From positions 62,001 to 126,000 of the forward strand of contig NZ_BAABAU010000004.1 of assembly GCF_039537585.1 (NCBI RefSeq): 64,000 bases of DNA, written 5' to 3'. Both the position numbers and the translations under genes were made by a program. The notes under the pieces are model-generated. The model ran no database searches and was not told where the DNA came from. It worked only from the letters and a program-made list of their open reading frames with translations. Positions 39,983 to 52,321 of the stretch are shown one piece after another. Numbering within the stretch: position 1 is the first letter of the stretch; each line of letters opens with the position of its first letter. The DNA comes from Frondihabitans peucedani (GTDB lineage: Bacteria > Actinomycetota > Actinomycetes > Actinomycetales > Microbacteriaceae).

Positions 39983-41008
39983 ATGAACTCCCCCTCCTCG
40001 TCCGCCGGCCCCGCGAGCCCGGCTGCGGCCCGAGCCGAGGCGGAGACGGCCCGGAAGACGGCCGCGGTCGTGTACAACCCGATCAAGGTCTCGCTCGCCG
40101 ACATCGAGAAGTCGGTCAAGCGACACCAGAAGACAGCGGGCTGGAACGAGACCCTCTACTACGCCACCTCGGTCGAGGACCCGGGCGGAGGCGTCACGGC
40201 GCAGGCCCTCGCCGCCGGAGCCGACGTGGTCGTCGCGGCCGGCGGCGACGGCACGGTCAGGAGCGTGGCCGAGGCCCTTCGCGGCACGGACGCCGCCCTC
40301 GGCCTCCTCCCGTCGGGCACCGGCAACCTGCTGGCGCGCAACCTGAAGCTGAGCCTCGACCACCTCGACACGGCCATCTCGACGGTGTTCCACGGCGTCG
40401 ACCGCCCGATCGACGTGGGCGTCGTCGACATCGAGAACGCCGACGGGTCGCGCGACCGCCGCGTCTTCGTCGTCATGGCCGGTCTCGGGCTCGACGCGAA
40501 GATGCTCGCCAACACGAACGACAAGCTGAAGAAGCGCGTGGGCTGGCTCGCCTACGTCGACGCGATCATCCGCTCGCTCCGCGACGACAACCGGATGACG
40601 ATCCGCTACGACCTCGACGGCACCGGCCGCAAGACCATGCGGACGAACACGATCATCCTGGGCAACTGCGGCCTCCTGCCCGGCAACCTGATGCTGCTGC
40701 CCGACGCCGCGATCGACGACGGCATCTTCGACATCGTGGCGCTCCGGCCGGAGCACAGGATCGACTGGATCGGCATCTGGCTCAAGATCGTGTGGGAGAA
40801 CGGGGTGCTGCGCAGGAGCCGCACCGGCCGCAAGATCATGGAGCACACGCCCGAGATCAAGACGGTCCGCTACATGAAGGGCGCGCAGCTCGTGGTGCGC
40901 CTCGACTCGCCGCAGGACTTCGAGCTCGACGGCGACTCGCACGGCCTCGCGGTCGCGATCAAGGCCTGGGTCGACCCGCTGGCACTCCGGGTGCGGGTCC
41001 CGGCCTAG
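39983..41008 (+). CDS. Diacylglycerol/lipid kinase family protein
   Basis: 341 aa. The ATP-grasping glycine motif AAGGDGTVRSVAEAL and the PSGTGNLLARNL segment identify the DAGK catalytic domain (about 25-160), followed by the beta-sandwich C-terminal domain. It phosphorylates a lipid at the membrane, e.g. diacylglycerol to phosphatidate, feeding PI/PG synthesis; sphingosine- or other lipid-kinase activity cannot be excluded. Two CCTGTGGA sites lie upstream (39872, 39905). Confidence 0.85.
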   Translation: MNSPSSSAGPASPAAARAEAETARKTAAVVYNPIKVSLADIEKSVKRHQKTAGWNETLYYATSVEDPGGGVTAQALAAGADVVVAAGGDGTVRSVAEALRGTDAALGLLPSGTGNLLARNLKLSLDHLDTAISTVFHGVDRPIDVGVVDIENADGSRDRRVFVVMAGLGLDAKMLANTNDKLKKRVGWLAYVDAIIRSLRDDNRMTIRYDLDGTGRKTMRTNTIILGNCGLLPGNLMLLPDAAIDDGIFDIVALRPEHRIDWIGIWLKIVWENGVLRRSRTGRKIMEHTPEIKTVRYMKGAQLVVRLDSPQDFELDGDSHGLAVAIKAWVDPLALRVRVPA

Positions 41009-42149: not shown

Positions 42150-43778
42150 ATGAGACGCATGACCGATCGTGCCGGCACCTACGCCCAAGACTCCGACCTC
42201 ATCGACCCGGAGGCGGTGACCGCTGCCTACTACGACCTGGTCCCCGATGTCGCCGACCCCTCGCAGAAGGTCGTCTTCGGCACCTCGGGCCACCGGGGCT
42301 CGTCGCTCGACGCCGCGTTCAACGAGGCGCACATCGCTGCGATCACGCAGGCGATCGTGGAGTACCGCACCGGTCAGGGCATCACCGGGCCGCTGTTCAT
42401 CGGGCGCGACACCCACGTGCTGTCGGCTCCGGCCGAGCGCACGGCGCTCGAAGTCCTGGCCGGCAACGGGGTGACGGTGCTCGCCGACGCCGAGGGCGGC
42501 TACGTGCCGACGCCCGTGGTGAGTCACGCGATCCTGGTCTACAACAACGACCCCTCCCACGACGACCAGGCCGACGGGATCGTGGTGACGCCGAGCCACA
42601 ACCCGCCCCGCGACGGCGGCTTCAAGTACAACCCGCCGCACGGCGGCCCCGCCGACAGCGACGCCACCTCGTGGATCGCGAACCGCGCCAACGAGATCAT
42701 CGCGGCCGGCAGCGGCGACGTGCGGCGCGGCGAGGCCGCCCCCGGCAGGCACGACTTCCTCCGCGGCTACGTCGACGACCTGGCGAACGTCATCGACTTC
42801 GACGCGGTCAAGAAGGCCGGCGTGCGTATCGGCGCCGACCCCCTCGGCGGCGCGAGCGTCGAGTACTGGGCCGCGATCCGCGACACCTACGGTCTCGACC
42901 TGACGGTCCTGAACCCCGAGGTCGACCCGACCTGGCGTTTCATGACTCTCGACTGGGACGAGAAGATCCGCATGGACCCGTCGAGCGCGTCGGTCATGGC
43001 GAGCGTCGTCTCCCGGAAGGACGAGTTCGACATCGTCACCGGCAACGACGCCGACGCCGACCGCCACGGCATCGTGACGCCCGACGGCGGGCTGATGAAC
43101 CCCAACCACTACCTCGCGGTCGCGATCGACTACCTGTACGCGCACCGCCCCGACTGGCGGCCCGACGCGGCGATCGGCAAGACGCTCGTGTCGTCGTCGA
43201 TCATCGACCGCGTCGCCGACGACCTCGGCCGCCGGCTGTGGGAGGTGCCGGTCGGGTTCAAGTGGTTCGTCCCGGGCCTGGTCGACGGGAGCGTCGCCTT
43301 CGGCGGGGAGGAGAGCGCCGGTGCGTCGTTCCTCCGCCGCGACGGCTCGGTCTGGACCACCGACAAAGACGGCATCATCCTCGCCCTCCTGGCCAGCGAG
43401 ATCCTGGCTGTCACGGGCAAGTCGCCCTCCGCGCTCTACCGCGGACTCACCGAGAGGTTCGGCGACCCGGTCTACCAGCGCGTCGACGCGGCAGCCTCGA
43501 AGGAGCAGAAGGCTCGCCTCGGCAAGCTCAGCGGCGACGACATCACCGCGACCGAGCTGGCCGGCGACCCGATCGTCGCAAAGCTCAGCGAGGCGCCGGG
43601 CAACGGCGCAGCCGTGGGCGGCGTCAAGGTGGTCACCGAGAAGGCCTGGTTCGCAGCCCGGCCGTCCGGCACCGAAGACGTCTACAAGATCTACGCCGAG
43701 TCGTTCGAGGGCCCGGAGCACCTGAAGCGGGTGCAGGAGGAGGCGAAGACGATCGTCGACGCCGCGCTCGGGGCCTGA
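42150..43778 (+). CDS. pgm: Phosphoglucomutase (alpha-D-glucose-specific)
   Basis: 542 aa, full length. Active phosphoserine loop GIVVTPSHNPPRDGGFKYN, metal loop TGNDADADRHGI, sugar loop FGGEESAGAS and C-terminal phosphate loop RPSGTEDVYKIY are all present. Interconverts glucose-1-P and glucose-6-P, linking glycolysis to UDP-glucose and cell-wall precursors. ATG at 42150 or 42159. Confidence 0.95.
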   Translation: MRRMTDRAGTYAQDSDLIDPEAVTAAYYDLVPDVADPSQKVVFGTSGHRGSSLDAAFNEAHIAAITQAIVEYRTGQGITGPLFIGRDTHVLSAPAERTALEVLAGNGVTVLADAEGGYVPTPVVSHAILVYNNDPSHDDQADGIVVTPSHNPPRDGGFKYNPPHGGPADSDATSWIANRANEIIAAGSGDVRRGEAAPGRHDFLRGYVDDLANVIDFDAVKKAGVRIGADPLGGASVEYWAAIRDTYGLDLTVLNPEVDPTWRFMTLDWDEKIRMDPSSASVMASVVSRKDEFDIVTGNDADADRHGIVTPDGGLMNPNHYLAVAIDYLYAHRPDWRPDAAIGKTLVSSSIIDRVADDLGRRLWEVPVGFKWFVPGLVDGSVAFGGEESAGASFLRRDGSVWTTDKDGIILALLASEILAVTGKSPSALYRGLTERFGDPVYQRVDAAASKEQKARLGKLSGDDITATELAGDPIVAKLSEAPGNGAAVGGVKVVTEKAWFAARPSGTEDVYKIYAESFEGPEHLKRVQEEAKTIVDAALGA

Positions 43779-43886
43779 CGAGCAGCGCCGGCCCGGGCCT
43801 GACCCGGGTCGGCCCCGCGCGGCCCGGCCCCCCGCCCGGCCCGGCCACGCGCCCGGCCCGGCGCCGCGCCAGGCCAGCGCGACGAC

Positions 43887-45596
43887 CTACTTGCCGGTGA
43901 CCTTGCCCGGGTTGAAGTTGCGCTTCGGGTCGGCGGAGTCGAGGAGCCCCTGCATGAGGGCGAGGCCCGGCAGCGAGACATCCTGCCCGAGCCACGGTGC
44001 GTGCTCGAGACCGACCCCGTGGTGGTGCGAGACGGTCCCGCCCTCCTGGATGAACGCATCCTGGATGGCCTTCTTCACCACGTCGTACTGCTCGAGGGCG
44101 TTGTCGCCGTGCTCGAACGCGAAGGTGAAGTAGAGGCAGGCGCCCGAGTGGTACGAGTGCGACAGGTGCGCCATGATCAGGCCCTGCACGCCGACCTTCT
44201 CGAAGGCGCGGTTGGCCGCGGCGTAGACCTCGGTGTAGAGCGGCAGCAGCTTCGACCAGGGCGCGGACGTCTCCGAGACGTCGGCCGCGCCGCCGTGGTC
44301 GAGGAAGAAGTCGCGAAGGTAGGGCGTGTCGAATTTCTTCTGGTCGTAGAGAACACCCGGACCCTTGCCGACGCCGATCCCGCCGTGCTTCTTGACGATC
44401 TTGGCGACGAGCTTCTGGTTGATGGAGACGTGCTCCTCGGAGCCCTCGTAGCCGATGAACGACAGGCACATCTTGGTGAGGTCCCAGCCCTTCACCTTCA
44501 GGAAGCGCTGGAGCCCCTGCATGACGAGCGCCGAGACGCCCTTGCTCTCCTTCGACGTCGCGAACGACATCTCGGTCTCGATCTCGTTCGAGACGCGCGT
44601 CACCGAGGGGTTGGCGTCGCTCTCCGCGATCGCCTGCATGGCGGCGAGGCCGGCCTCCCAGGTGGGGAAGAGGTAGGCGAGGATCTCGCGCTGCTCGGGG
44701 ATCCGGTGCACCTGCACGGTGACCTCGGTGATGACGCCGAGGCGGCCCTCGGAGCCGAGGATCATCTCGCGGAGCGACGGTCCGGTCGAGGCCGACGGCA
44801 CGGCGCGGATGACGACGACGCCGTCGGGGCGCACCATCCGGAGGCCCTTGGTCATATCGGCGATGTCGCCGAACTTGTCGGACTGCATGCCCGACGAGCG
44901 GGTGGCGACCCAGCCGCCGAGAGTGGAGTGCGTGAAGCTGTCGGGGAAGTGCCCCATGGTCCAGCCCTTGGCGTTGAGCTGCTCCTCGATGTCAGGACCC
45001 TGCGCACCGGCCTGGATCCGGGCGACGCGGCCGTCCTCGTCGATGTCGAGCACGCGGTCGAGGCGGCCCATGTCGAGCGAGACGACCATGCGCTCCTCGT
45101 CGGGCATGGGCTCGAGCGAGCCGACGATGTTGCTGCCGCCGCCGAACGGGATCAGCACGAGGTCGTACTCGACGGCGGCCGCGACGATCTTGGCGACCTC
45201 GGACTCGGTGGCCGGGTAGACGACGGCGTCGGGCACGCGCGGGAAGATGTTGCCGCGGATGCGGATGAGGTCGCGGATGCTCTTGCCGTAGGTGTGCACG
45301 ACCCGCTCGAGGTCGCCGGTGACGACGTTGCCCTCGCCGACGACGAGCGACAGCGACGACGCGACCTCGGAGCTGAGGCGCGAGGCCGGGATGTCGAGCT
45401 CGTCGAAGGCGGGTGCGGCGGTGATCGCGTCGGATCCGAGGTCGACGCCGACCATCTTCTTCACGAACGGTGCGAACGCGGGCTTGTCCTCGTGGTGGAA
45501 GGCCGTGCCCTCGACACCCCAGCCCCACCACTTCATGTGCTTGACGTCGGGACCGTCGACCGCCCCTGCGGTCGTCTTCGGCTTCAGATCGGTCAC
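43887..45596 (-). CDS. agpS: Alkyldihydroxyacetonephosphate synthase homologue (FAD enzyme)
   Basis: 569 aa. From N to C: MKWWGWGVEG (AGPS reads MKWNGWG), the PCMH FAD-binding domain with IPFGGGSNIVGS (149-160), HSTLGGWVATRSSGMQSDKFG (split at 223-236 and on; AGPS STVGGWVSTRASGMK), SLREMILGSEGRLGVITEVT (275-294), and in the C-terminal domain SYHSGACLYFTFAF and the catalytic GGTVSHHHGVG with His524-526. AGPS replaces the acyl chain of acyl-DHAP by a fatty alcohol, making the ether bond of ether lipids. These features go well beyond generic FAD oxidases such as D-lactate dehydrogenases. GTG start at 45596 overlaps the plsC stop (GTGA). Last gene of an SDR-plsC-agpS operon. Confidence 0.8.
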   Translation of the reverse strand: MTDLKPKTTAGAVDGPDVKHMKWWGWGVEGTAFHHEDKPAFAPFVKKMVGVDLGSDAITAAPAFDELDIPASRLSSEVASSLSLVVGEGNVVTGDLERVVHTYGKSIRDLIRIRGNIFPRVPDAVVYPATESEVAKIVAAAVEYDLVLIPFGGGSNIVGSLEPMPDEERMVVSLDMGRLDRVLDIDEDGRVARIQAGAQGPDIEEQLNAKGWTMGHFPDSFTHSTLGGWVATRSSGMQSDKFGDIADMTKGLRMVRPDGVVVIRAVPSASTGPSLREMILGSEGRLGVITEVTVQVHRIPEQREILAYLFPTWEAGLAAMQAIAESDANPSVTRVSNEIETEMSFATSKESKGVSALVMQGLQRFLKVKGWDLTKMCLSFIGYEGSEEHVSINQKLVAKIVKKHGGIGVGKGPGVLYDQKKFDTPYLRDFFLDHGGAADVSETSAPWSKLLPLYTEVYAAANRAFEKVGVQGLIMAHLSHSYHSGACLYFTFAFEHGDNALEQYDVVKKAIQDAFIQEGGTVSHHHGVGLEHAPWLGQDVSLPGLALMQGLLDSADPKRNFNPGKVTGK

Positions 45597-46534
45597 GGGC
45601 GGGCTCCTTCGGATGGTGCGGACGTCCCCAGGATATCCGCGGAGTACTGGGACTTCAGGTGCAGTATCTCGTCGCGGAGACGGTTCGAGAACGCGATGGC
45701 GGTCTCTCCCGTCGCGGGTCGCATGGGGGTCCCGAAGGCGACGCCGACGGGCAGCCGCCCGGGCCTCGGCCAGTGCGAGCCCCGCGGGTGCGCGATATTC
45801 GCACCGATCAGGGCGAGCGGGACGATGGGGACGTCGCAGGCGGCGGCGAGGCGGGCGGCACCGGGCTTGAACGGGCCCATCTCGCCGTCCTTCGAGCGCG
45901 TGCCCTCCGGGAAGACCAGGACCGGGAACCCCCGGGTGAGGAGCGACGCGGCGCTGACCGCGGACTCCGACGCGCGCGAGGCGGGCCTCTTCTTGGAGCC
46001 GCGCTTGCCGCCCCGCTGGATCGGGAACGCGTTGAAGAACAGCGACGTCAGCCCGCGGCGCCACCAGACGTCGAAGAAGTAGTCGGCCGCCGCCCCGGTC
46101 GCGAGGTAGCGCGACAGCTTGCGGGGCAGCGCGCCGACGATGAGCGGTGCGTCGAGGTGGCTCGAGTGGTTCGCGACGAGCACGAACCCGCCGTCGAGCC
46201 CGGTGAGCTTCTCACGACCGAGCACGGTCACGTCGGTGATCGACCAGATGGTGGGCTTCATGACCCAGCGCTGGGCGACGAAGCGGGCCATCGCGTGGAC
46301 GCGCGAGTTGAAGCGGTCCGAGACGTCGACGGCGGTGTCGCCGAGGCGTGCGCGGACGTCCTCCGCGGTGTCGGTGACCCGGCCCGCGACCGCGGCGAGG
46401 CGCGGGTGGACCGGAGTCGCAGGATCCTGCGCGCCCTCGGCCTCGATCGGCACGCGCCCGACCGGCTCGCTGTCCGCCCCCGGCTCCGAGGTCTCGTTCT
46501 TCGGCGGTTCGCTCTGCCGATCGTCCACGATCAT
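45593..46534 (-). CDS. 1-acyl-sn-glycerol-3-phosphate acyltransferase (PlsC family)
   Basis: 313 aa. A hydrophilic N-terminus of about 85 residues is followed by the acyltransferase domain with NHSSHLDAP (HX4D, catalytic), PIQRGGKRG, VFPEGTRSKDGEMGPFKPGA and PIVPLALIG. It acylates lysophosphatidate or an alkyl analogue at the membrane. Its start overlaps the SDR stop (ATGA) and its stop overlaps the agpS start (GTGA), so all three proteins come from one translationally coupled message. Confidence 0.88.
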   Translation of the reverse strand: MIVDDRQSEPPKNETSEPGADSEPVGRVPIEAEGAQDPATPVHPRLAAVAGRVTDTAEDVRARLGDTAVDVSDRFNSRVHAMARFVAQRWVMKPTIWSITDVTVLGREKLTGLDGGFVLVANHSSHLDAPLIVGALPRKLSRYLATGAAADYFFDVWWRRGLTSLFFNAFPIQRGGKRGSKKRPASRASESAVSAASLLTRGFPVLVFPEGTRSKDGEMGPFKPGAARLAAACDVPIVPLALIGANIAHPRGSHWPRPGRLPVGVAFGTPMRPATGETAIAFSNRLRDEILHLKSQYSADILGTSAPSEGARP

Positions 46535-47310
46535 GCCTCCACCGGTTTCTTCCTGCTTGACGAGATGGCGCCGGAGACGCCTCTCACGGCGCTCTTGGGT
46601 GCGTGACGCAGCAACCCGACGAGCATTTTGTACCGAACCGTTGGAATGGAGATCACTCTGCCCTTGTCGACGTCGCGCAGGCACGCGGACACCAGTTGTT
46701 CGGCGTCGAGCCAGAGGGAGTTTGGGATGCTCGAGGTCGTGATGGCGGCGCGCTCGTGAAACTCGGTGCGGACCCAGCCGGGCAGGACCGCCGTGACGGT
46801 GACGCCGGTGCCCTTCAGCTCGACTGCGAGGCCCTCCGAGAAGGAGGTCACCCACGCCTTGATCGCCGAGTAGGCGCCCATGGCGAGCAGGCCCGCGGTG
46901 GACGAGACGTTGATGATCCGGCCGTAGCCGCGGTCGCGCATCGCCCGGGCGGCAGCGCCGGAGAGAACCAGCACGGCGCGCACCATGACGTCGAAGCCGA
47001 GGTCGAGCTCGTCCTGTCGACCGGAGGTCAGCGGCACGTGCATGCCGAAACCGGCATTGTTCACCAGGAGGTCGACGGGCCGGTCGGGATCTTCGAGGCG
47101 AGCGGCGACGCGGTCGACGGCGTCGCGGTCCGAGAGGTCGGCGGAGAGGACCTCGACCGATCGACCGAGGGCGCGGAGCTCGCCCGCCGTGGCGTCGAGT
47201 CGGGCCTCGTCTCGGGCGACGAGAACGAGGTCGTATCCACGTTGTGCGAGCTGGCGGGCGAATTCGGCACCGATGCCGGATGTGCCCCCGGTCACGAGCG
47301 CTACAGCCAT
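46531..47310 (-). CDS. Short-chain dehydrogenase, candidate alkyl/acyl-DHAP reductase
   Basis: 259 aa classical SDR. TGGTSGIG (7-14), NNAGFG (84-89), NVSS (134-137), Y147-S-A-I-K151. The C-terminal extension (about 230-259) is basic and hydrophobic (YKMLVGLLRH), suggesting membrane contact, as in DHRS7B/PexRAP-type SDRs that reduce alkyl-DHAP. That substrate is inferred from the coupled plsC and agpS genes, not from the sequence itself. ATG at 47310. Confidence 0.7.
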   Translation of the reverse strand: MAVALVTGGTSGIGAEFARQLAQRGYDLVLVARDEARLDATAGELRALGRSVEVLSADLSDRDAVDRVAARLEDPDRPVDLLVNNAGFGMHVPLTSGRQDELDLGFDVMVRAVLVLSGAAARAMRDRGYGRIINVSSTAGLLAMGAYSAIKAWVTSFSEGLAVELKGTGVTVTAVLPGWVRTEFHERAAITTSSIPNSLWLDAEQLVSACLRDVDKGRVISIPTVRYKMLVGLLRHAPKSAVRGVSGAISSSRKKPVEA

Positions 47311-47387
47311 GCCGCTTACGATACGGTCTTCACGGGCAACTTCGTGCATCGATCACCGCTGACGCCCGCTCCGGAGGCAGACGTTCC

Positions 47388-48212
47388 ATGACCACCCGTC
47401 ACGACGATCCGCGGAACGAGGGCCCCTTCGACATCCGCGCGTTCACGCGGACGGCGCAGGGCAGCTTCCGCGCCGAGCTCGACCTGACGTCGTTCGCAGA
47501 CGCTCCGCTCGACACGGCCACCCTCGATCTGGTCCGGTACCTCGAGCGGCTCGAGGCCGCCACGATGGAGCACCTCCGCAACCTGCTGGTCACCGCGACG
47601 CACAAAGACGCGCGGGTCACGGCGTTCCTCGTCACCTGGGCCTTCGAGAAGTTCTGGATCGCCGACGCCCTCGACAGCGTGCTCGAGGCCCACGGTCTCC
47701 CCCGCACCCGCGAGATCCCCGAGGGCGCGCCCCGGAAGAGCGCCGACGAGGCGATCCAGCGGAGCGGCCCCATCCGCCGGGCCGTGGCCGCCGTCGGACT
47801 CGGTGCCCCGATCGTGGCCATCCACATGACGGCCGGGCTCATCGACGAGTGGATACTCCGAGCGGCATACGACCGGCTGCGCGAGACGACCTCGTCCGAG
47901 GCGCTCCGGGCGGCGATCCTGCGGATCCAGTCCGTCAAGACCCGCCACGAGGCCTTCTTCGCCGACGAGACCGATTGGAGGCTCCGCGACTCCCCGCGGG
48001 CCGTGCGACAGGTCAAGACGGCCCTCCGCACCGCCGCCTGGCCGATCGGAGGCGTCGAGCGCGCCGCCGTCGACCGCGACCTCTTCGAGCGCTTCACCTT
48101 CGGGGGCGTCGACGGGGTCGCCCGTGCCGAAGAGATCGGGCGCAGGATCGCGGGTCTCCCGGGGCTCGACGACCGCGTGGCCCAGGCCACCGTCCGGAAG
48201 CTCCTCCCGTGA
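47388..48212 (+). CDS. Ferritin-like protein with degenerate diiron site
   Basis: 274 aa, helical. It aligns along its length with the intact ferritin-like protein encoded at 50647 (RYLERLEAAT/RYMADVEYHT; THKDARVTAF/SHKEGEISTF; KTRHEAF/ETRHVAF). Of the six expected ligands E56, E154 and H187 remain, while the ExxH of helix 2 is K88-x2-I91 and the Glu of the last ExxH is K184. It therefore should not hold a diiron centre and may be a scaffold or regulatory partner. ATG at 47388 has CCGGAGG upstream. Divergent from the SDR-plsC-agpS operon by 77 bp. Confidence 0.7.
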   Translation: MTTRHDDPRNEGPFDIRAFTRTAQGSFRAELDLTSFADAPLDTATLDLVRYLERLEAATMEHLRNLLVTATHKDARVTAFLVTWAFEKFWIADALDSVLEAHGLPRTREIPEGAPRKSADEAIQRSGPIRRAVAAVGLGAPIVAIHMTAGLIDEWILRAAYDRLRETTSSEALRAAILRIQSVKTRHEAFFADETDWRLRDSPRAVRQVKTALRTAAWPIGGVERAAVDRDLFERFTFGGVDGVARAEEIGRRIAGLPGLDDRVAQATVRKLLP

Positions 48213-48300
48213 CGCCCCGGGAGCTCGCCGCGTGACGGCGACCCGCGACGCCGGAGCACCAGACGAAGACACGCCCCCGACCGGGCAGGAAGGACGAACC

Positions 48301-50598
48301 GTGGCCGAATCAGGCGACATCACCATCGACCTCGGAACGCAGCACGTCCTCCTGACGGGCGGCACCGGGTTCGTCGGGCAGGCGATCCTCGAGCGGCTCC
48401 TCGCCGACCACCCCGAGACGACCGTCTCGCTGCTCATCCGCGTCAAGAGCGGCACCAGCGGCGTCGACCGCCTGCGCCACCTCCTGCGGAAGCCCGTCTT
48501 CAAGTCGTGGCGCGACCGCGTCGGTGCCGAGGCCGTCGAGCACGCTCTGACGACGCGGCTCCGCGTGCTGGAGGGCGGCCTCGACAGCGTCCCCCCTCTG
48601 CCCGACGACCTCGACCTCGTGATCCACTCCGCCTCCAGCGTCTCGTTCGACCCGCCGATCGACCAGGCCTTCGAGACGAACGTCGGCGGCGCCGTCGGAC
48701 TCTACGAGGCCCTCCTCGCGACCGGCACCTCGCCCCACGTCGTCCACGTCTCGACGGCGTACGTCGGAGGGCTGCGCAAGGGCGTGTTCCCCGAGGCCGG
48801 CCTCACGCACGACGTCGACTGGCGTGCCGAGTTCGAGGCGGCGCGGGCCGCCCGCTCGCGCGTCGAGCTCGCGTCGCGCCAGCCCGAGGTGCTCCGCCGC
48901 TTCATGGCCGACGCCCGCGGGAAGCACGGCAAGGAGGGGCCGCTCGCGGTCTCGCGCGAGGCCGAGGCGGCTCGCGCCGAGTGGGTCAAGGCCAAGCTGG
49001 TCGACCACGGCAGGATGCGGGCAGAGAGCCTCGGCTGGACCGACGTCTACACGCTGACCAAGGCGTTCGCCGAGCGTGCCGCCGAGCAGATGTGGGCCGC
49101 AGCCGGACACCGTCTCTCGTTCGTGCGCCCCGCGATCGTCGAGAGCGCTCTCCGGCACCCCTATCCCGGCTGGATCGACGGCTTCAAGGTCGCCGACCCG
49201 CTGATCATGGCCTACGGCCGCGGGATGCTGCCCGAGTTCCCCGGCGTCCCGGACAGCGTGCTGGACGTGATCCCGGTCGACTACGTCGTGAACGTCATCC
49301 TGGTGGTGTCCGCGAACCCCGCCGGGGCCGGCGACGCCCAGTACTTCCACATCAGCTCGGGAGCGAGCAACCCGCTCCCGATCCACCGCATGTTCTCGAA
49401 CCTCAGCATGTTCTTCACGGCGAACCCGCTGCCGACGCCCGACAGCGGCTCGATCGAGGCGCCGGTGTGGCGGTTCCCGGGCGGACGCAAGGTCGAACGG
49501 GCCGTGCGGCTCCAGGGGCGGCTGAACGACGCCCGCGAGCGCGTCTTCATCCGCATGCCCTCCACCGACCGGACCCGTCGGGCCCTCGCCCAGGTCGACC
49601 AGCGCCGGAGCGACCTCGAGTCGCTCCAGAGCCTCACCGACCTCTACCGCCACTACATCCAGTCCGAGATCATCTTCGACGACCGCCGGACCAAGGCGCT
49701 CCAGAAGGCCCTGGCCGACAGTCAGCCTGCCGACGTCGTCGCCGACATCGGCTTCGACGTGGCCGACATCCAGTGGGAGGACTACTTCCAGGGCATCCAC
49801 TTCCCCGCCGTGACGACGATGACCCGGGCGTTCAGCGTCCGACCGGCGTCGTCGGCCCGCAAGGAGGAGGCTCTGCCGCAGCGCAGCGACGTCGTGGCCG
49901 TCTTCGACCTCGAGGGCACGGTCGTCGACTCGAACATCGTCGAGCAGTACCTCTGGGTGCGCGGCGAGGGCTTCGGCAAGGCCAGCTGGCCCGGCGAGGT
50001 CGCGAGCCTCCTCGCCTCCCTCCCCGGCTACCTCCGCGCCGAGCAGCGCGACCGTGGCGAGTTCATCCGCGCGTTCCTCCGCCGCTACGAGGGCATGCCC
50101 GTGAAGAGGCTCGAGGAGGTCGTCTCGGGCGGCTTCGCGCAGACGATGCTGCGGCACACGATGCCCGAGGCGCTCGAGCGCCTGGCCGCCCATCGCGCAG
50201 CCGGCCATCGCACGATCCTGGTCACCGGATCGATCGGCGCACTCGCCGCACCCCTCGCCGACCTGTTCGACGAGGTCGTCGCCGGGACGATGCATGCCCG
50301 AGACGGCATCTTCACCGGATACCTCGCGAGACCCCCGCTGGTCGACGAGGCGAGGGCCGCGTGGCTGGTCCAGTACGCCGAGCGGAACGGCTTCGACCTG
50401 GCGGCCTCCTATGGATACGGTGACAGCCATTCCGACCTCGTGTGGCTCGAATTGCTGGGAAATCCAAGCGCAGTGAACCCCGACGCCAATCTGTCGCGGG
50501 AGGCGCTCCGAAGAAAGTGGAGGATCCGCGATTGGAAGCGCGGGCCTTTGCAGCTAACCTCGTCCTATGTCGCAGGGGCCGCCCGCACCGACGACTAG
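48301..50598 (+). CDS. Fatty acyl-CoA reductase domain fused to HAD-IB phosphatase domain
   Basis: 765 aa. Residues 10-370 form an extended SDR of the male-sterility/fatty-acyl-reductase type: TGGTGFVG (19-26), HVSTAYV with Ser151, and DVYTLTKAFAE with Tyr250/Lys254, close to the VYTFTKALAE signature of FAR enzymes. A helical linker (400-525) leads to a HAD-IB domain (530-765) with FDLEGT (D536, the second Asp is E538), TGS (motif II) and GYGDSHSDL (motif IV). FARs reduce fatty acyl-CoA to a fatty alcohol, the substrate AGPS needs. The HAD part may dephosphorylate a lipid intermediate, though the D-to-E change may weaken it. GTG at 48301 follows GGAAGGA. Confidence 0.78.
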   Translation: MAESGDITIDLGTQHVLLTGGTGFVGQAILERLLADHPETTVSLLIRVKSGTSGVDRLRHLLRKPVFKSWRDRVGAEAVEHALTTRLRVLEGGLDSVPPLPDDLDLVIHSASSVSFDPPIDQAFETNVGGAVGLYEALLATGTSPHVVHVSTAYVGGLRKGVFPEAGLTHDVDWRAEFEAARAARSRVELASRQPEVLRRFMADARGKHGKEGPLAVSREAEAARAEWVKAKLVDHGRMRAESLGWTDVYTLTKAFAERAAEQMWAAAGHRLSFVRPAIVESALRHPYPGWIDGFKVADPLIMAYGRGMLPEFPGVPDSVLDVIPVDYVVNVILVVSANPAGAGDAQYFHISSGASNPLPIHRMFSNLSMFFTANPLPTPDSGSIEAPVWRFPGGRKVERAVRLQGRLNDARERVFIRMPSTDRTRRALAQVDQRRSDLESLQSLTDLYRHYIQSEIIFDDRRTKALQKALADSQPADVVADIGFDVADIQWEDYFQGIHFPAVTTMTRAFSVRPASSARKEEALPQRSDVVAVFDLEGTVVDSNIVEQYLWVRGEGFGKASWPGEVASLLASLPGYLRAEQRDRGEFIRAFLRRYEGMPVKRLEEVVSGGFAQTMLRHTMPEALERLAAHRAAGHRTILVTGSIGALAAPLADLFDEVVAGTMHARDGIFTGYLARPPLVDEARAAWLVQYAERNGFDLAASYGYGDSHSDLVWLELLGNPSAVNPDANLSREALRRKWRIRDWKRGPLQLTSSYVAGAARTDD

Positions 50599-50615
50599 TC
50601 CAACCCGAAGGGAGT

Positions 50616-50638
50616 GGAAGAGGACATATTCCTCTTCC
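50616..50638 (+). promoter_or_regulatory. Short hairpin before the second ferritin-like gene
   Basis: GGAAGAGG and CCTCTTCC are perfect 8-bp arms around ACATATT. The hairpin would hide the purine-rich stretch ahead of the ATG at 50647 and could attenuate its translation relative to the upstream FAR gene. Confidence 0.4.
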
Positions 50639-50646
50639 GACATGCA

Positions 50647-51441
50647 ATGGCATTCGATATCGACAAGTACGCCGCGACCTCTGAGCGCCTCGGCTGGGAC
50701 GACCTCGATCTCGATCACTTCCGCGAGAACCCCCTCTCGCCCGAGACGCTGCGCACGCTCCGCTACATGGCCGACGTCGAGTACCACACGGTCTGCTACA
50801 CCCGCGACCTGCTGACCACCCCCTCCCACAAGGAGGGCGAGATCTCGACCTTCATGACCATGTGGAACCGCGAGGAGTTCTGGCACGGCGAGGCCCTCGG
50901 AGCCGTCCTCGAGGTGCACGGCATCACGGTCGACTACGACGCCCTCCGCGCCTCGCGCCTCAAGCTCGGCTGGCGCGACCGCCTCGACCCGATCAAGCAG
51001 TCCATGCTGGGCAAGATCGTCGGCAGCGACTTCGTCGCCGTCCACATGTCGTGGGGCGCCGCCAACGAGTGGTCGGCCGTCAGCGCGTACAAGCGCATGG
51101 CCGAGCTCGAGACCGACCCGGTGCTCGGCGAGCTCCTCCGCAGGATCGCGAAGCAGGAGACCCGCCACGTCGCCTTCTACGTGTCGCAGGCCCGCGCCCG
51201 CCTCGAGAAGAGCAAGCGCGCCCAGAAGCTCACCCGTCTGCTCCTGTCGAAGTTCTGGGCCCCCGTCGGTTCCAGCATCATGGACCGCGACGACGTCCAG
51301 TTCGTCTTCGGCCAGATCATGTCGGGCGTCGACGGCCGCCGTGAGATGCGCAAGCTCGACAACAACATCGCGAGCCTCCCCGGCATGAAGGGCCTCACCA
51401 TCTTCGAGAAGGCCCTCGACGGCCTCGGGGTCGCGGCCTGA
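50647..51441 (+). CDS. Ferritin-like diiron protein
   Basis: 264 aa, all-helical. The full diiron ligand set is seen: E45 (VEYHT), E77-x2-H80 (EEFWH), E141 (NEW) and E171-x2-H174 (ETRH). This places it with ferritin-like oxygenases/desaturases (AurF, acyl-ACP desaturase superfamily) rather than iron-storage ferritins. Its substrate may be the acyl or alkyl chain of the lipid made by the neighbouring enzymes. The start MAFDIDKY at 50647 is preferred; the GTG at 50614 has its purine-rich site only 3 bp away and lies before a hairpin. Last gene of the three-gene plus-strand unit. Confidence 0.75.
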   Translation: MAFDIDKYAATSERLGWDDLDLDHFRENPLSPETLRTLRYMADVEYHTVCYTRDLLTTPSHKEGEISTFMTMWNREEFWHGEALGAVLEVHGITVDYDALRASRLKLGWRDRLDPIKQSMLGKIVGSDFVAVHMSWGAANEWSAVSAYKRMAELETDPVLGELLRRIAKQETRHVAFYVSQARARLEKSKRAQKLTRLLLSKFWAPVGSSIMDRDDVQFVFGQIMSGVDGRREMRKLDNNIASLPGMKGLTIFEKALDGLGVAA

Positions 51442-51502
51442 CACAGCCCCTCTGCGGGCTGACGCAGGCTCTCACGCGGGCTGGCACAGGCTCTCTCCGG
51501 CC

Positions 51503-51511
51503 TGTGGACAA
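51503..51511 (-). promoter_or_regulatory. DnaA-box-like site upstream of the MoxR operon
   Basis: TGTGGACAA, exact copy of the site at 42112, 40 bp upstream of the first gene of the operon at 51551. Confidence 0.4.
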
Positions 51512-51550
51512 CGGAGAGCCACGCGGCCGCGGTCGGGTAGCGTCGATTCC

Positions 51551-52321
51551 ATGAGCAGCGAGAGCACCGAGACCGAGGAGCGCACCAGGCGCGTCCCGGT
51601 CGCCGCGCTGCTCGCGGGCGTCCTCGCGATCCTGATCGCCGTGGGCGCCGCCGTCGGAGGCTCGCTCCGGTTCACCGGTCCGCGGTGGTTCCCGGGCATG
51701 ACGATCACGCCGAGGCCGCTCGTCCAGACGAACTCGCCTCGCCCGATCGCGAGCTCCACGCCTCCGCCCGCGCCTCGCACGCACCCGGGTCCCGACCTCA
51801 CCTGGCTCGTGGTCCTCCTCGCCGTCCTGGCCCTCGCGGCGGTCGCCTTCTTCGTCGTGCGCTGGCTCGTCAAGCGCCTCCGCGCCCGCACCACCGGCGT
51901 CGTCGCGCCCCTCAGCGACATCACCGACCTGACCGACGTGCCCGACGACCCCTCGGTCGAGACGAGCATGCCCTACCTCCGGCGGGGGCTCCGACGGGCC
52001 CTGGCCGCCCTCGACGAAGACCGGTCGCCGCGCGACGCGATCATCGAGGCCTGGCTGGGCCTCCAGGAGGCAGCCGAAGACGCAGGATTCCGCCGCACCG
52101 AGTCGGAGACGCCGACCGAGTTCACCTCCCGCATCCTGGAGCGCGTCGAGGTCGACCCGGTCGCGCTGTCGACGCTGCGGCGGCTGTACCTCGCCGTGCG
52201 CTTCGGCGACGCGACCGCGAGCCCCGACGACGTCGCCTCGGCGCGGCGGTCGCTCGAGACCCTGCAGGCCCAGTGGGAGCAGCACGGCACGGCCGAGCCC
52301 GACGGCGAGGCGGCCCCGTGA
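51551..52321 (+). CDS. DUF4129-domain membrane protein
   Basis: 256 aa. Two membrane segments (PVAALLAGVLAILIAVGAAV and WLVVLLAVLALAAVAFFVV) and a C-terminal DUF4129 domain with PYLRRGLRRALAALDED, ETPTEFTSRILE and RLYLAVRFGDA. DUF4129 is usually the C-terminal module of transglutaminase-like membrane proteins in MoxR-DUF58 operons; here it stands without the transglutaminase. First gene of a five-gene operon; the next start overlaps its stop (GTGA). Confidence 0.8.
   Translation: MSSESTETEERTRRVPVAALLAGVLAILIAVGAAVGGSLRFTGPRWFPGMTITPRPLVQTNSPRPIASSTPPPAPRTHPGPDLTWLVVLLAVLALAAVAFFVVRWLVKRLRARTTGVVAPLSDITDLTDVPDDPSVETSMPYLRRGLRRALAALDEDRSPRDAIIEAWLGLQEAAEDAGFRRTESETPTEFTSRILERVEVDPVALSTLRRLYLAVRFGDATASPDDVASARRSLETLQAQWEQHGTAEPDGEAAP

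Follow-up and report, generated by a model that had tools for sequence, protein, structure and literature searches.

We analyzed a window of 64,000 nucleotides from the 3.69-Mb genome of the actinobacterium Frondihabitans peucedani (Microbacteriaceae), in which positions 43887-51441 carry six genes in two divergent operons. On the minus strand lie agpS, encoding a homologue of alkyl-dihydroxyacetone phosphate (alkyl-DHAP) synthase (AGPS), a gene for a PlsC-like acyltransferase and a gene for an SDR oxidoreductase. On the plus strand lie the genes for DI1, for a fusion of a fatty-acyl reductase with a HAD domain (FAR-HAD) and for DI2, DI1 and DI2 being ferritin-like proteins. The interpretation that we favor, with some reserve, is that this cluster serves aerobic plasmalogen synthesis and that DI1 and DI2 act in it as a 1'-desaturase independent of CarF. 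It draws on the genes observed, on their conservation and co-occurrence, and on conserved ligands and a predicted fold, from which we infer the reactions, the order of the steps and a complex of DI1 with DI2.

The ferritin-like pair DI1 and DI2

DI2 (50614..51441, plus strand) and DI1 (47388..48212, plus strand) are paralogues with 32% sequence identity. For DI2 the ATG at 50647 is a more likely start than 50614, since the alignment shows ATG or GTG there in relatives. Its ligands E56, E88, H91, E152, E182 and H185 were kept in 121 of 121 distinct relatives. This pattern (E, ExxH, E, ExxH) comprises all six ligands of acyl-acyl carrier protein (acyl-ACP) desaturases and ferritin-like diiron enzymes, and no other protein of the cluster has a site of an O2-activating type. 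Ligand conservation and the structural model make it the candidate catalytic subunit of a 1'-desaturase.

In DI1 the metal site is degenerate. Among 117 distinct relatives, a count that omits proteins at the DI1 position better matched by the DI2 query, position 88 is K or R in 114 and position 184 in 107, position 91 is I, L, V or M in 112, and E56 is kept in 113. DI1 thus lacks the complete set of six ligands, its most frequent signature being EKIEKH. The two Lys residues at Glu-ligand positions suggest a site that is metal-free and held by salt bridges.

Pfam gave no domain match for DI1 and only weak, sub-threshold matches for DI2 (FA_desaturase_2, 18.8 bits, cut-off 22.7). The AlphaFold models have a mean pLDDT of 86.6 for DI2 and 93.6 for DI1. 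In Foldseek the top match of DI2 was the acyl-ACP desaturase 7t63 (E 1.9e-3, TMq 0.62, probability 1.00), and for DI1 an acyl-ACP desaturase also ranked first (best E 4.0e-3). For both proteins the top desaturase was followed by R2-like ligand-binding oxidases (R2lox) and other desaturases, all with modest E-values. The two genes stand together at most loci read in the order sample (see below), even where AGPS is distant or absent, which suggests that DI1 and DI2 form a two-subunit protein. At two loci (L240, L241) DI1 was not detected beside DI2.

AGPS and the other enzymes of the cluster

The FAD enzyme encoded by agpS (43887..45596, minus strand, 569 aa), the predicted ether-bond former, scored 410 bits over residues 94-566 against Dictyostelium AGPS (2uuu) and 305 bits over residues 39-561 against peroxisomal AGPS (4bby), so that it is AGPS-like across nearly its whole length. 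Lactate, glycolate and hydroxyglutarate enzymes of solved structure did not exceed 79.6 bits and matched just part of the sequence, and the NCBI glycolate oxidase model gave 135 bits at a cut-off of 567.9. The protein has the domains PF01565 and PF02913. In the alignment with 4bby the protein keeps the counterparts of R419, R515, Y578 and the HHH motif (positions counted by hand), which we take to be the catalytic residues of mammalian AGPS. The motifs MKWWGWG, STLGGWVATRSSGM and SHHHGVG were all found in the agpS product, and SHHH[GAS]VG is present in 109 of 113 locus matches (not deduplicated), the remaining 4 lying outside the alignment coverage. A lactate or glycolate dehydrogenase is ruled out by score, coverage and conserved residues. 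The first-pass annotation had called the enzyme a close AGPS homologue and had taken a grouping with dehydrogenases as one result that would speak against its proposal; by these three measures, the score being that of HMMER, and not by a tree, the enzyme groups with AGPSs.

The PlsC-like protein (45593..46534, minus strand) matched PF01553 with 82.9 bits, and its HxxxxD and PEG motifs are conserved among relatives. It may be either the supplier of acyl-DHAP or the sn-2 acylase; the overlap of its gene with agpS would suit the former role. One genus has a further PlsC-like gene, of 31% identity, between the FAR-HAD and DI2 genes (L058 in genome G007, L062 in G090). The SDR protein (46531..47310, minus strand, start at 47310 or 47349) matched PF00106 with 154.8 bits and has a YxxxK motif. 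It is predicted to be the alkyl-DHAP reductase, a substrate suggested by its gene context.

The FAR-HAD fusion (48301..50598, plus strand) matched PF07993 over residues 18-333 with 147.6 bits, and PF12710 in its HAD-IB domain (about 49897-50448). The NADPH and YxxxK motifs of the reductase are conserved among relatives, and the C-terminal Sterile domain stayed below threshold (22.2 bits, cut-off 35.4). The usual HAD motif I is DxD, the second Asp of which is replaced by Glu in most relatives (DLEGT, DFEGT, DMEGT), and five have DLHGT. The phosphatase activity of this domain is possibly altered or lost.

All gene assignments of the first-pass annotation (AGPS, PlsC, SDR, FAR, HAD, ferritin-like) were borne out by the open reading frames (ORFs), as was the coupling of three genes by overlaps, GTGA at 45593-45596 (agpS and plsC-like gene) and ATGA at 46531-46534 (plsC-like gene and SDR gene). 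For PlsC, which had been suggested for sn-2 acylation, the acyltransferase family stands and a role as DHAP acyltransferase is equally possible. The "ferritin-like diiron protein(s)" of the annotation turned out to be two paralogues, of which DI2 keeps the metal ligands and DI1 does not.

Conservation of the six genes

In a family sample of 150 Microbacteriaceae genomes we found DI-type proteins in 46 and read 45 loci. At 36 of these all six genes are present in identical order and orientation. Two loci are cut by contig ends, six have the DI pair without the other genes in the stretch (one of them, L063 in genome G097, with AGPS and FAR about 7-12 kb away), and one (L066) has only a weak DI1-like match. 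A second set, which shares some genomes with the first, consisted of 80 loci kept out of 255 matches. The complete order is present at 65 of them, 11 show just the DI pair, and the other 4 are partial. AGPS is uncut and in one piece in 60 of the 65 full sets and cut by a contig end in two (L165, L190). In the other three (L117, L147, L183) the AGPS match is split in two pieces, which may reflect a disrupted gene or a frame error in the assembly. Holders of the full set include Frondihabitans, Frigoribacterium, Agreia, Galbitalea, Glaciihabitans, Salinibacterium, Pseudolysinimonas, Protaetiibacter, Herbiconiux, Arenivirga, Amnibacterium and two Microbacterium.

The genes also stay together in other arrangements. 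A family of the same order (f86, genera g330 and g339) has a co-directional operon DI2-DI1-FARHAD-SDR-PLSC-AGPS at the 5 uncut loci read, in three of which the protein at the DI1 position was best matched by the DI2 query. Streptomyces sp. NBC_01450 carries all six genes on a linear plasmid of 2.35 Mb (NZ_CP109481.1; L244, 7816-15792), which suggests that the cluster was transferred as a whole. That the six genes have stayed together through rearrangement and apparent transfer indicates that they share a function. In Actinoplanes sp. NBRC 103695 (L193, NZ_BSTL01000013.1) DI1-DI2 adjoin a reversed FAR-HAD and a PlsC-like gene, and no AGPS was seen within the 20.8 kb examined.

Co-occurrence of the DI pair and AGPS

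Within the family sample 40 genomes have the DI pair together with AGPS/FAR, 5 have DI only, one (G101) has AGPS/FAR only and 104 have neither (Fisher p 1e-29, shared ancestry ignored). For this table the weak DI1-like match in G045 was left out, G113 (DI1 present, DI2 past the contig end) was counted as DI-positive and G107 (AGPS past the contig end) was scored by FAR. We also searched an order sample of 396 genomes for DI2 (E<=1e-10) and close AGPS (E<=1e-140). DI2 was found in 56 and close AGPS in 75 genomes, with 48 containing both, 8 DI only, 27 AGPS only and 313 neither (Fisher p 7e-34, again ignoring shared ancestry).

Both Fisher tests used counts that were entered by hand and rechecked as sets. 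The DI pair and a FAR-SDR-PLSC-AGPS cluster can also stand at separate places of one genome, as in families f84 and f76 and genus g362 (G690, G821, G755 and G622 were read); close AGPS is present in all 12 genomes of these groups that were searched. As DI and AGPS are present together even though unlinked, their association is not due to linkage alone. Conversely, two loci (L243 in G101, L250 in G784) have AGPS-PLSC-SDR-FAR clusters without DI genes. In G597, which belongs to a related genus of the Kineococcus family, AGPS occurs together with two DI2-type genes.

A strict tie of DI2 to the cluster is contradicted by distant DI2 relatives in other actinobacterial families (L097-L116; about 29-46% identity, one fragment 54%), which mostly occur singly at a locus and have neither the six-gene set nor AGPS beside them in the stretches read. 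When eight of these genomes (G420, G283, G262, G337, G511, G233, G229, G189) were searched whole, AGPS homologues (about 34-36% identity) were found in two.

Dimethyl acetals and lipids of related genera

Dimethyl acetals (DMAs) are the methanolysis products of plasmalogens. F. adelgis D8 grown in air contained a-15:0 aldehyde/DMA, earlier reported in the type strain of F. faeni (PMC12823222), and Agreia up to 4% iso-15:0 DMA (PMC5945732); genomes of F. faeni (Frigoribacterium faeni) and Agreia carry the full set. Four Subtercola species have about 21-29% total DMA (sums computed here), the chain types of which parallel those of the fatty acids (PMC5945732). In Kineococcus rubinsiae a-15:0 DMA accounts for 2.9%, and the peak named "14:0 2-OH" by MIDI was a-15:0 DMA by GC-MS (PMC7472656).

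Frondihabitans is described with 14:0 2-OH among its major acids (PMC5945732), which by analogy may be the same mislabelled DMA. More generally, some "14:0 2-OH" entries in actinobacterial taxonomy are possibly mislabelled a-15:0 DMA. As polar lipids, phosphatidylglycerol, diphosphatidylglycerol, glycolipids or others are given for Subtercola, Agreia and Frondihabitans (PMC5945732), and phosphatidylethanolamine is listed for two new Herbiconiux species.

To form vinyl ethers, aerobes require a desaturase that depends on O2, and the one that reviews describe is CarF/PEDS1 (PMC9131029, PMC9702350). In searches run without a positive control, its family PF10520 (Lipid_desat) had no match in the source genome or in 80 of 80 genomes, which speaks for a desaturase other than CarF; DI1 and DI2 had none either. 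Nor was a CarF apparent beside AGPS in one Kineococcus neighbourhood (L246; ORF starts inspected by eye, no domain scan), and 11 AGPS-bearing Kineococcus genomes had no PF10520 match.

Proposed pathway and alternative explanations

In the pathway that we propose, FAR would convert the branched acyl chains of the cell to alcohols, and acyl-DHAP would be supplied by the PlsC-like enzyme or by a housekeeping acyltransferase. AGPS would form alkyl-DHAP from acyl-DHAP and the fatty alcohol, and the SDR would reduce it to alkyl-glycerol-3-phosphate, followed by acylation at sn-2. The diiron protein DI2 together with the metal-less DI1 would then carry out an O2-dependent C1'-C2' desaturation of the alkyl chain, yielding the vinyl ether. 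That the pair is an independent invention of the 1'-desaturase, namely a soluble ferritin-like heteromer of aerobic actinobacteria, unrelated to CarF/PEDS1, with the diiron site in DI2 and a Lys-Glu mimic in DI1, is a narrower proposal to which we give slightly less than an even chance. If it is true, O2 chemistry gave rise to the vinyl-ether bond at least two times, and a soluble desaturase should be easier to study than a membrane enzyme.

Several observations weigh against a desaturase role of the DI pair. No Foldseek match of either protein reached E 1e-3, and the PF10520 search had no positive control. The 11 Kineococcus genomes listed with close AGPS do not occur among the DI2 matches; this number refers to listed AGPS-bearing genomes and not to the total sampled. 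One of the order-sample genomes, G583, is Kineococcus radiotolerans (100% match to a pKRAD01 protein, matching coordinates), and that of K. rubinsiae was not searched by name. Given the DMA found in K. rubinsiae, DI cannot be the sole route to DMA unless this species differs from its relatives. Fourteen distinct DI2 sequences (Agromyces, Leifsonia, Humibacter, Glaciibacter and others) come from stretches without AGPS, and of eight such Microbacteriaceae genomes searched whole (G025, G102, G057, G079, G142, G835, G905, G767) seven had no AGPS at E<=1e-40, the eighth (G142) having a homologue of 37% identity. These 14 sequences form one clade (support 0.957), nested among cluster-bearing sequences and adjacent to one of them, so that the best reading would be a single derived loss or else transfer of just the DI pair; no common neighbour that could explain the DI-only loci was apparent in the ORF lists, inspected by eye without a domain scan.

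The lipid data contain counterpoints as well. The genus table of PMC5945732 gives no major DMA for Agreia, and Frondihabitans is described there as being without DMA. A strain of F. endophyticum carries the cluster, and DMA is unreported for this species (PMC12823222). Since F. adelgis D8 lists both 14:0 2-OH and a-15:0 DMA (PMC12823222), some entries of 14:0 2-OH may have a cause other than mislabelling. Finally, no named Subtercola, the strongest DMA producer, is among the genomes in which the cluster was found.

Part of this evidence would also fit a different division of labor, in which AGPS makes alkyl ethers, DI1 and DI2 perform another oxidation, such as a desaturation elsewhere in the acyl or alkyl chain or a 2-hydroxylation, and vinyl ethers, if any, come from another enzyme. 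DI and AGPS are separable, as the AGPS-less DI clade, the Kineococcus genomes and the two DI-less AGPS clusters in G101 and G784 illustrate; a predicted fold like that of acyl-ACP desaturases and R2lox would be compatible with several reactions, and 14:0 2-OH is a listed major acid of Frondihabitans (PMC5945732) and F. adelgis (PMC12823222). However, the peak given this name was a-15:0 DMA by GC-MS in K. rubinsiae (PMC7472656), and DI and AGPS co-occur even where unlinked, which leaves such a division of labor rather unlikely in our view.

We give considerably less credence to an AGPS homologue that forms no ether at all, with the cluster building another lipid or wax from the FAR alcohol by way of the acyltransferase and the SDR, and the FAD enzyme having a different alkyl-transfer role. 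The enzymes are known from their sequences alone, more distant FAD enzymes on plasmids (about 29-35% identity) carry no AGPS annotation, and an ElbD homologue was seen in Pontiella without ether lipids (PMC11868695). Against this, the score and catalytic residues fit true AGPSs, and DMAs are reported for cluster-bearing genera (PMC5945732, PMC12823222). A chance neighbourhood of common lipid genes without shared function can practically be dismissed: the SDR, PlsC-like and HAD families are indeed common (239 models listed for the SDR), but the conserved order, the rearranged operon, the plasmid copy and the co-occurrence contradict it.

The proposed aerobic synthesis of plasmalogens with DI1 and DI2 as 1'-desaturase combines known and new elements. 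Aerobic bacterial plasmalogens, actinobacterial AGPS homologues and DMAs in Microbacteriaceae were already known, whereas a DI1/DI2 desaturase would be new, if confirmed; in the open-licence PMC literature, as far as available, no paper was found that links the six-gene set or the ferritin-like pair to plasmalogens or DMAs. The ether-lipid proposal of the first-pass annotation is well supported by the AGPS identity and gene co-variation, but the pair was underplayed there as "ferritin-like". The check that it suggested, whether the six genes stay together across Microbacteriaceae, came out positive at the 36 of 45 and 65 of 80 loci given above. Less justified was its impression of a gene set unfamiliar in actinobacteria: the set is found in numerous genera of Microbacteriaceae and also outside this family, in others of the order, and actinobacterial AGPS homologues are known from metagenome-assembled genomes (PMC11868695). 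Nor are markers of plasmalogens novel in this family, DMAs of aerobic members having been published (PMC5945732, PMC7472656). The cluster offers a concrete gene set for testing the origin of plasmalogens in Microbacteriaceae.

Further features of the locus

The intergenic region 47311..47387 separates the divergent operons and presumably contains their promoters; a sigma-70 scan of 43700-51600 returned 0 sites. Genes for a phosphoglucomutase and a DUF4129 protein flank the cluster and recur at three Frondihabitans loci. DI2 is 94-95% identical to its counterparts in three Frondihabitans genomes, Frigoribacterium being next best with 83%. Near the cluster, ORF 39983-41008 (plus strand) contains a GGDGT motif, by which it presumably resembles a diacylglycerol or lipid kinase.

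Comparison with known ether-lipid systems

A 2022 review called myxobacteria exceptional among aerobic bacteria for their plasmalogens and reported true CarF homologues outside this group only in Leptospira (PMC9131029). DMAs in aerobic Subtercola, Agreia, Frigoribacterium and Kineococcus (PMC5945732, PMC12823222, PMC7472656) contrast with a view restricted to myxobacteria. Like the Frondihabitans strain, Myxococcus xanthus (MXAN_1676-1674, elb operons and CarF) is an aerobe that has AGPS and a FAR domain together with HAD and NAD-dependent companions; there, however, the fusion partner of FAR is a GNPAT-like domain, the main route runs through ElbD, and the desaturase is CarF (PMC9131029). 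In the Frondihabitans cluster AGPS is the candidate for ether formation, and the DI1/DI2 pair is present.

The animal pathway (FAR1, GNPAT, AGPS, PexRAP/DHRS7B, PEDS1/TMEM189) shares the AGPS homologue, and the FAR, SDR and PF01553 proteins of the cluster fit the same steps. It differs in that the cluster FAR is fused to HAD and that two ferritin-like proteins are present, with no PEDS1/CarF found. The polar lipids given above for Subtercola, Agreia and Frondihabitans are a further difference, although Herbiconiux has phosphatidylethanolamine listed. The anaerobic PlsA/PlsR system leads to the same product class, plasmalogens, by reducing diacyl lipids without O2 (PMC9702350); no such gene lies in the cluster, to which this comparison was confined. 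Acyl-ACP desaturases and R2lox share the ligand pattern of DI2 and appear to resemble both DI proteins in predicted fold, as far as the modest Foldseek E-values allow, whereas the DI proteins stand apart from them by an identity of about 15%, by the lack of a Pfam match above threshold and, for DI2, by having a conserved metal-less paralogue as partner.

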